Origin: an uncultured Oscillibacter sp.
Lineage (GTDB): Bacteria > Bacillota > Clostridia > Oscillospirales > Oscillospiraceae
Reading direction: 5' to 3'
NCBI GenBank assembly: GCA_947382875.1
Contig: CANDBG010000028.1
Coordinates: forward strand, 1-34,221
DNA: 34,221 nucleotides
A model generated the notes under the pieces. That model had not been told where the DNA came from and made no database searches. It was given only the letters and a program-made list of their open reading frames with translations. The translations under genes and the position numbers were made by a program. Below are positions 10,567 to 34,221 of this stretch, piece after piece. Numbering within the stretch: position 1 is the first letter of the stretch; every line of letters begins with the position of its first letter.

Positions 10567-11234
10567 GCCCCGACCTTCTCCTCCTTTACGACGGACCCGT
10601 TTTCCAGAAAATAACAGCGGCTGCACAGGCAGCGCATCACCGCCGGGTCGTGGGTGATGAACAGATATGCGGTCCGATGCTGCCGTTGGTAATCCCGCAG
10701 AATTTGCAGAACCTGCGCCCGCGATACGGCGTCCAGCATGCTGACCGGCTCGTCGAGAATCAGCAGCTTCGGGGCCATGGACATAACCCGCGCCAGCGCC
10801 GCCCGCTGAAGCTCGCCGCCGCTCAAGGCTCCCGGACGCCGGGAAAGGTGTTCTTCGTACAACCCCACCTGCGCCAGCCGTTGGACGAACTCCGCCTCAT
10901 CAAATGGAACTTTATGGATGCGGTACGGCTCCAAAAGGCTCTGCCGCAGGCTCCACAGCGGGTCAAACGCCTCCTCCGGGTGCTGGTACACCATCTGCAC
11001 CGTCCGCCGCAGCTCGCCGCGAAACGGATAACGTACAATTTCACCGTTCCAACGCAGCGTGCCGGAGTTCACGGGCAAAATACCGGCGAGCAAATTCGCA
11101 AGTGTAGTTTTTCCGCTGCCGCTTTTTCCAAAAATCCCCACCGTTTCCCCGGCATCCAGATGAAGATCCGTCTCATGCAGCGTAAAGCCCCCCGCGGAAT
11201 ACCGCTTTGTCAGCTTACTCGCTTCCAGCAGCAT
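10563..11234 (-). CDS. ABC transporter ATPase, DppF/NikE type
   Basis: Cytoplasmic ATPase of 223 residues. Walker A is GKSGSGKT, the Q-loop region is VYQHPEEAFDP, the signature is LSGGELQR, Walker B is LLILDEP, and the switch His is in FITHDP. It lacks the C-terminal oligopeptide/dipeptide (HPY) domain that its partner has, so it is short, as some NikE-like proteins are. The ATG at 11234 overlaps the end of the partner gene by 20 bp; the ribosome site is weak, so coupled translation is likely. Confidence 0.93.
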   Translation of the reverse strand: MLLEASKLTKRYSAGGFTLHETDLHLDAGETVGIFGKSGSGKTTLANLLAGILPVNSGTLRWNGEIVRYPFRGELRRTVQMVYQHPEEAFDPLWSLRQSLLEPYRIHKVPFDEAEFVQRLAQVGLYEEHLSRRPGALSGGELQRAALARVMSMAPKLLILDEPVSMLDAVSRAQVLQILRDYQRQHRTAYLFITHDPAVMRCLCSRCYFLENGSVVKEEKVGA

Positions 11235-31861: not shown

Positions 31862-31883
31862 TGTAGAAAAAAGGGGGATATCA

Positions 31884-32603
31884 ATGTCCAACGAAAAACC
31901 GGAGTCCCAAAAACTGGTGCTTGTCGTCGAGGACGAGAAAAGCATTGCCGATATTCTGCGCTTTAACCTGGAACTGAAAAATTACCGCGTCAGCACCGCT
32001 TACGACGGTGAGGAAGGTCTCGCCAAAGCCCGGGCCGAAAACCCCGATTTGATCCTTCTGGACATTATGCTCCCGAAACTGATCGGCTTTGATGTCTGCG
32101 AGATTCTGCGCGGCGAGGGAAATAATGTCCCCATCATTCTCCTGACCGCCCGCGAGGAGGAAGATGACAAGGTTCGCGGCCTGGAAATCGGCGCAGACGA
32201 CTATATCACAAAACCGTTTTCCATGCGGGAAGTCGTGGCTCGGGTAGAGGCCAACATCCGCCGTCACGCCATGCCCCAGAGGGCCGCCATCGACAGCGCC
32301 ATGGCCGTCTCCGGAGACCTCGCCATCAACACCGACAGCCACCAGGTCTTCCGCGCCGGACAGGCCATCAGCCTCACACAGCGGGAATATGAACTCCTCA
32401 CGTTCCTGGCCAGTCACCCAAACAAGGTCTATTCCCGTGTGGATCTCATGGAGCAGGTCTGGAACTACGGCTACGTTGGTGACGATGTGCGGACGGTGGA
32501 TGTAACGGTCCGGCGTCTGCGGGAGAAAATCGAAACCGACCCTGCCAATCCCCAGTATATCCTCACCCGCCGCGGCGCGGGCTACTACTTCGCGGTCAGC
32601 TGA
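31884..32603 (+). CDS. OmpR/PhoB-family response regulator, WalR/PhoP type
   Basis: A 239-residue regulator. The receiver domain (about 11-125) has the acidic pair in VVEDEKS, phospho-acceptor Asp60 (LILLDIMLP), Thr88 (ILLTARE) and Lys110 (DDYITKPF). The winged-helix DNA-binding domain (about 145-237) ends RLREKIETDPANPQYILTRRGAGYYF. The sequence layout is that of WalR (YycF)/PhoP regulators. AAGGGGG precedes the ATG. The cognate kinase gene follows after a 57-codon ORF. Confidence 0.93.
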   Translation: MSNEKPESQKLVLVVEDEKSIADILRFNLELKNYRVSTAYDGEEGLAKARAENPDLILLDIMLPKLIGFDVCEILRGEGNNVPIILLTAREEEDDKVRGLEIGADDYITKPFSMREVVARVEANIRRHAMPQRAAIDSAMAVSGDLAINTDSHQVFRAGQAISLTQREYELLTFLASHPNKVYSRVDLMEQVWNYGYVGDDVRTVDVTVRRLREKIETDPANPQYILTRRGAGYYFAVS

Positions 32604-32642
32604 ACAACACCATACATTAATGATAAGGAGGCTCTGCAAACC

Positions 32643-32816
32643 ATGTGGGAATATGAGATCCGTCACAAGCGAAATGGTCAGACCCGGAAAATTTACGGCG
32701 AGACCGCAGGCAATGCGTTCCGGCGGTTCGGACTGGAACAGGAACGCTGGATTCTGATTCAGAAAAAAGAAATCGAAAATATCCCCGGCGAATCGGAACC
32801 GAAACGCGATAAATAA
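32643..32816 (+). CDS. 57-residue protein between response regulator and kinase
   Basis: It encodes a small, charged, soluble protein starting MWEYEIRHKRNGQTRKIYGE, with RRFGLEQERWILIQKKEIE in the second half. An AAGGAGG site stands 11 nt before the ATG, and it fills the gap between regulator and kinase genes, so it is very probably translated. I do not recognise a family. Its position suggests a link to the two-component system, but nothing in the sequence shows what it does. Confidence 0.65.
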   Translation: MWEYEIRHKRNGQTRKIYGETAGNAFRRFGLEQERWILIQKKEIENIPGESEPKRDK

Positions 32817-32900
32817 AGGCGGTCCGGCCGGCCGGCGGAGGACGCACCCCCGATTTCTCCCCGCAAAACCGAAATCGGAATTCAGAAAGGAGGCGCCGTT

Positions 32901-34176
32901 TTGTTCCGCAGCCTGCACATGAAGCTGTCGCTCATCCTGCTGCTTTTGATTACTTCTTTGATGGCCGTCGTAGGGGCGTTTCTGACAATCAGCGTCTCCG
33001 GCTTCTTCACCGACACCTTTTATCAGCAAATCGACAGCGTTTTCGGGACAAATCAGCCGGAATTTGTGGCCTCGCTGCGCAGCGAGGCCGCCCAGTCCGA
33101 CGGCGCGACCCGTATTCGCGATATGCTGGACGTGACCGCCGGAAAACTTGGCATTGATTACCGTACCCGAAACTATTTCGTTCTCGACGGTGCAACCGGC
33201 TCCTATCTCACCGGCTCCGCCGACGAAACCGCCCTGCCCCGTGAGCAGAGTCCGAACCTGCTTACCGCCCGCAACGCCGTTGCCCAGGGCGACCCAACCA
33301 TCGTGGGAGATATCAGCGACATTACTGCCGATTACATGGATGCCGCCATTCCCATTTTCGGCGGGTCGAATGCCTTTATTATCTATATTCTCGACAACCG
33401 CGAAACGGTCTCCGGGCTCAACGGTCAGCTTTTTATGATTATTATGCAGTCGCTGGTCATCGGTCTGCTGATTTCCGTTTTGCTGAGCTTTCTGCTGTCC
33501 AAGACCATGGTGGGTCCCATCGAAAAACTTACCGTCGGCGCAGAACGGATTGCCTCCGGCAATTTCAGCAGCGCCTTGCCTGTGGAGTCCACCGACGAAA
33601 TCGGTATTCTTACCGGTACCTTTAACGAAATGGCGGGCGTTCTGCATGCAACCCTGGCCGCTGTGGAGAACGAACGCAACAAACTGGACACGCTCTTTCT
33701 GCACATGACTGACGGCGTTGTCGCCTTCGACTACGCCGGAACCCTTATTCACTGCAACCCCGCCGCAAACACCATGCTCCGCCGCACCGTCGGGGCGGAC
33801 TGCACCTATGAAGAATTGTTCGGGTCGCTGTACCCGTTTGAGGAAATGCTCGCGCTTCAGCGGCCCAACTACGCCGAAGGGGAACTGCTGGTAAAGGACC
33901 GGACATTGGAGGTCTTTCTGGCCCCCTTTTCCGACCGGGAACGCGGGGGCGTTCTGATTGTGCTGCACGATGTCACGGAACAACACCGGAACGAAGAACG
34001 CCGCAAGGAATTTGTCGCCAACGTTTCCCATGAGCTGCGGACCCCTCTGACCAACGTCCGAAGCTACGCGGAAACTCTCCGGGATGCGGAGGGGGCCATT
34101 CCACAGAACACCGCCAACAGTTTTCTGGACATTATCATCAATGAAACCGACCGTATGACGCACATCGTACAGGACC
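32901..34176 (+). CDS. WalK/PhoR-type sensor histidine kinase, 3' end missing
   Basis: Membrane sensor kinase, 425 codons present. TM1 is about residues 8-30, an extracellular sensor loop about 31-176, TM2 about 177-199, HAMP 200-252 (TMVGPIEKLTVGAERIASGN), a PAS domain about 260-360 (FLHMTDGVVAFDYAGTLIHC), and the HisKA phospho-acceptor His377 in FVANVSHELRTPL. The ATPase domain is absent because the contig ends. The start is a TTG at 32901 with AAAGGAGG 7 nt upstream; the ATG at 32919 is too far from that site. Genuine sequence stops at 34176, where adapter begins. It partners the upstream response regulator. Confidence 0.93.
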
Positions 34177-34221
34177 AGATCGGAAGAGCGTCGTGTAGGG
34201 AAAGAGTGTTCTCTACTGTGT
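34177..34221. other. Illumina adapter read-through, not genomic
   Basis: From 34177 the sequence is AGATCGGAAGAGCGTCGTGT and continues AGGGAAAGAGTGT, the reverse complement of the TruSeq P5-side adapter. It is followed by eight bases (TCTCTACT), which fit an index, and GTGT, which fits the next fixed adapter bases. The kinase reading frame is conserved up to 34176 and then loses similarity. Confidence 0.97.

Follow-up and report, generated by a model that had tools for sequence, protein, structure and literature searches.

Illumina TruSeq adapter sequences are known to contaminate the contig ends of public microbial genomes (Moeller et al. 2024, BMC Genomics 25:1033; PMC11536531). Among 15,657 MGnify species reference assemblies, that study reports 1110 with a significant adapter enrichment (p < 0.01), where about 157 would be expected. 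The adapter was concentrated at contig ends in both orientations, it breaks contigs, and trimming lets some of these merge; the universal adapter start is given together with two read-specific extensions. The window (the whole stretch of DNA analysed here, 34,221 nt) is contig C28 of a draft genome, G000, of 2.77 Mb in 113 contigs and 87.5% completeness. It has in common with the published account, as far as the latter's available text goes, the universal 12-mer AGATCGGAAGAG and the forward- and reverse-specific extensions, and in its genome, as in that account, adapter copies in both orientations are concentrated at the ends of contigs, and contigs are broken. Compared with that text there is no difference in kind, and the contig-end adapter is one ordinary instance of the contamination already described there; the significance of finding it is practical only. 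What is done here beyond the available text is to trace one split gene across the break, and to determine the index bases and set those of different genomes side by side.

Adapter sequence at the contig end

Read directly from the sequence, positions 34177–34221 of the window consist of AGATCGGAAGAGCGTCGTGTAGGGAAAGAGTGT, followed by TCTCTACT and GTGT, and extend to the end of the contig (Table 1). The 33-base fixed part is composed of the exact universal start and a read-specific extension, matches 34177–34209 with 0 mismatches and, with as many as 3 mismatches allowed, matches nowhere else in the window. At the same threshold it was not found in 100 dinucleotide shuffles of the window, and about 4e-16 matches are expected by chance from base composition. 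The last genuine base is 34176, and the adapter begins with its own first base directly behind it. For the tails described here we assume the names P5 and P7 and an adapter layout of a fixed part, an 8-base index and then GTGTAGATCT and onwards. The GTGT behind the index extends as GTGTAGATCT in tail L097, and is longer still in three viral contigs. A preliminary description of this DNA had identified the last 45 bases, beginning at 34177, as P5-side read-through with a fixed 33-base part, an 8-base index-like part and GTGT, and both the identity and the position are borne out. The terminal sequence is an untrimmed Illumina TruSeq P5-side adapter, a laboratory artefact rather than biology, and these 45 bases of the contig are not genome sequence.

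Table 1. Features at the right end of the window, and adapter tails of other genomes of the genus in which no index could be read.
Feature	Position	Strand	Observations
Response regulator, upstream of the kinase	31884..32603	+	Receiver and Trans_reg_C domains (Pfam)
Genuine 5′ part of the sensor histidine kinase, 425 codons + 1 base	32901..34176	+	HAMP, PAS and most of HisKA; continues on C42
Fixed 33-base part of the Illumina TruSeq P5-side read-through adapter	34177..34209	+	Exact and sole match in the window; two more contigs of the genome carry the string at an end
8-base index as read through, TCTCTACT	34210..34217	+	Same in 3/3 P5 tails of this genome reaching the index; other 8-mers elsewhere in the genus
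GTGT, with which the constant P5 part after the index begins; contig end	34218..34221	+	Tails in other genomes also have GTGT after their index
Tail without readable index, L092 (G078)			Stops 2 bases behind the fixed part
Tail without readable index, L093 (G085)			Passes into a row of G
Tail without readable index, L095 (G019)			Too short
Tail without readable index, L098 (G099)			Fixed part one base off; nothing index-like before the constant sequence

A sensor kinase gene divided over two contigs

The adapter interrupts a sensor histidine kinase gene. Its reading frame starts with a TTG codon at 32901, codon 425 ends at 34175, and 34176 is the first base of codon 426; since 34176 is also the last genuine base, 425 codons are genuine. 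By Pfam these contain HAMP, PAS and positions 2–56 (of 66) of HisKA. The frame stays open through the adapter to the contig end, and its final 15 residues, which begin with QIGRASCRERV, are not protein. Pfam assigned identical sets of four families to the sequence with and without these residues, the HisKA score being 58.0 and 57.6 bits, respectively. The 15 false residues give no false domain, and HATPase_c is what the kinase loses. The literature searched contained no mention of the adapter-derived peptide IGRASCRERV.

When the genuine part of the kinase was used as a DNA query against its own genome, it matched, besides itself, positions 1–54 of contig C42 at 100%. The first 54 bases of this contig are the genuine ones that stand just before the adapter in C28, and behind them it resumes the genuine sequence within the same assembly; the kinase continues in frame with LLTLSRLD and, after 177 further residues, reaches a stop. 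The C42 piece carries HATPase_c (Pfam, E 1.5e-33) as well as HisKA positions 40–66, the latter scoring, as a fragment, 22.8 bits and so below the Pfam cut-off of 26.9. Matches to the kinase DNA were found in 23 of 24 other genomes of the same genus, and in all 11 of the relatives' loci that were fetched and read, LLTLSRLD continues the gene at the same place and the stop follows after 172 to 177 residues. The kinase gene is divided by the assembly over two contigs and is not truncated, nor should the kinase predicted at the contig end be called so. The earlier description had placed the false residues after codon 425 and had warned of a seeming truncation; the codon boundary, the 15 adapter-derived residues and the real continuation on C42 agree with it.

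An antisense open frame (31881–34163, minus strand, 760 aa) lies opposite the response regulator and the kinase. It showed no Pfam family at E values up to 0.001, and is probably spurious.

Adapter tails in the same genome and the origin of the breaks

The 13-base start of the adapter has 8 matches in the genome, all of them at contig ends; the reversed adapter pattern, searched as a control, gave 0 matches in this genome and 0 in every control row listed. Four of the tails are P5-side (C26, C28, C90 and C107) and four are P7-side (C41, C54, C71 and C76), with between 16 and 52 bases of adapter each. The adapter reads forward where it stands at the end of a contig and as the reverse complement where it stands at the beginning (8/8). 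The P5 index is TCTCTACT in the three tails long enough to show it, and three of the P7 tails reach the index, which is AGCCTCAT in two and GGCCTCAT in one; the P7 index is followed by ATC or ATCT. The deviating GGCCTCAT is found at the end of C71 (L006), and could be a sequencing error or come from a second library.

At least three adapter-bearing breaks in the genome overlap another contig (C28/C42, C90/C13 and C26/C76). C90 and C13 share exactly 54 bases, two of these by coincidental agreement with the adapter. An equal 54-base overlap at independent breaks points to the fork of a de Bruijn assembler with k of about 55. The starts of C26 (L001) and C76 (L007) have 24 genuine bases in common, flanked by P5 and P7 tails at opposite ends, as if a 24-base insert had been read through from both ends and the assembly broken there. 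The search for partners covered C28, C90, C26/C76 and C54, and no partner contig was found for C54.

It is virtually certain that the tail of the window is untrimmed adapter from fragments shorter than the read, kept as a contig end. A read would pass the insert end at 34176 into the P5-side adapter, index included; the assembler would keep the adapter branch of the graph as the end of C28, and the true continuation of the kinase would be left as the start of a separate contig, C42. Directly observed are the adapter string, the location of its copies at contig ends, the presence of both adapter kinds, an index that differs from genome to genome, and the kinase continuation on C42; from these we infer a graph fork and short inserts as the cause.

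Adapter sequences in related genomes and in other assemblies

Among 86 genomes of the window's genus, the 13-base adapter start is present in 10, its own included. Sixteen of the 20 matches outside its own genome were read, and comprise 13 tails at contig ends, spread over 7 other genomes of the genus, one internal adapter and two chance matches. These last two (L090 and L091, in G014 and G065) lie inside contigs without adapter continuation, and were therefore rejected as chance 13-mers. The 8-base index between exact constant parts was readable in 9 of the 13 tails, representing 5 of the 7 genomes, and always differed from that of the window. The P5 indices were ACGTCCTG and GGCAGTAT, and the P7 indices were ATAGCGAC, TCGTAAGG, GTGTTCTA, CTAAGGTC and GTAGAGGA. 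Together with the P5 and P7 counts given above for the window's genome, this is the pattern of an index that is constant within a library and variable between libraries. The other tails are included in Table 1, where that of L098 reads as in an adapter lacking this index. Across the phylum, the 30-base P5 part was found in 2 of 398 genomes drawn, the window's own included; in the second (G162) it is 42 bases from a contig end and carries another index.

The exact 45-mer was found in 35 contigs of three MAGs in a search of the GTDB r220 collection, a count that may leave out the window's own genome. Two of these MAGs are bins of run ERR6760113 and one is a bin of SRR15730542, and in all 35 contigs the 45-mer lies no more than 3 bases from the contig end. 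The 13-base start occurs 96, 32 and 5 times in the three MAGs, with the 96 adapter starts held by bin G040. Thirty of these 133 matches were read (L060–L089), and from the adapter start it is never more than 51 bases to the contig end. A full index is present in 27 of the 30 tails, TCTCTACT in 13 and AGCCTCAT in 14, with none other, and in 3 of the 27 the P7 index is followed by ATCG instead of ATCT. A longer pattern, which includes the constant part behind the index, was found in 3 IMG/VR contigs, in each case at the beginning and with other indices.

The pair of TCTCTACT (P5) and AGCCTCAT (P7) might link the genome to ERR6760113 or SRR15730542 through a common library or sequencing set, and the tails of deposited MAGs might then serve as provenance marks, a connection we regard as possible but doubtful. 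No mention of run ERR6760113 was found in the literature searched. The same pair occurs in bins of two different runs, and is therefore not unique to one run.

Alternative origins of the terminal sequence

If the last 45 bases were genuine genomic sequence, the kinase would truly diverge at codon 426 and the adapter match would be due to chance or to a natural element. In its favour, the kinase frame stays open to the contig end. Against it stand the minute chance expectation, the occurrence of the 45-mer in 35 contigs of other MAGs, each time at a contig end, the presence of the genuine kinase continuation in the same genome, and a reversed-pattern control that is empty in every row listed; we consider this origin vanishingly improbable. 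A natural origin is likewise not supported by the matches read, all of which, except L090, L091 and L100, are adapter running to the contig end. Slightly less remote, though still very improbable, is that the adapter was joined to the contig by misassembly, as a stray adapter or as the bridge of a chimera, and not by simple read-through at the insert end. In favour of this, a relative, G009, has P7 adapter within a contig where the reading frame is open on either side of it (L100), an indication that assemblies of this kind do contain adapter-bridged chimeras. In the window, however, the genuine sequence is followed directly by the first base of the adapter, and the contig stops while still within the adapter, which is the picture of read-through.

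The internal adapter of G009, a genome of the same genus, is a 31-base P7-side stretch at positions 1483–1513 of L100 (near 11048–11078 of its contig C12). Read by eye, the open frame runs through the stretch as well as on both sides of it. The motif KTGGLGDV that precedes it is presumably that of a glycogen synthase, part of which seems to have been replaced, and the contig may be an adapter-bridged chimera of a kind that trimming of contig ends would miss.
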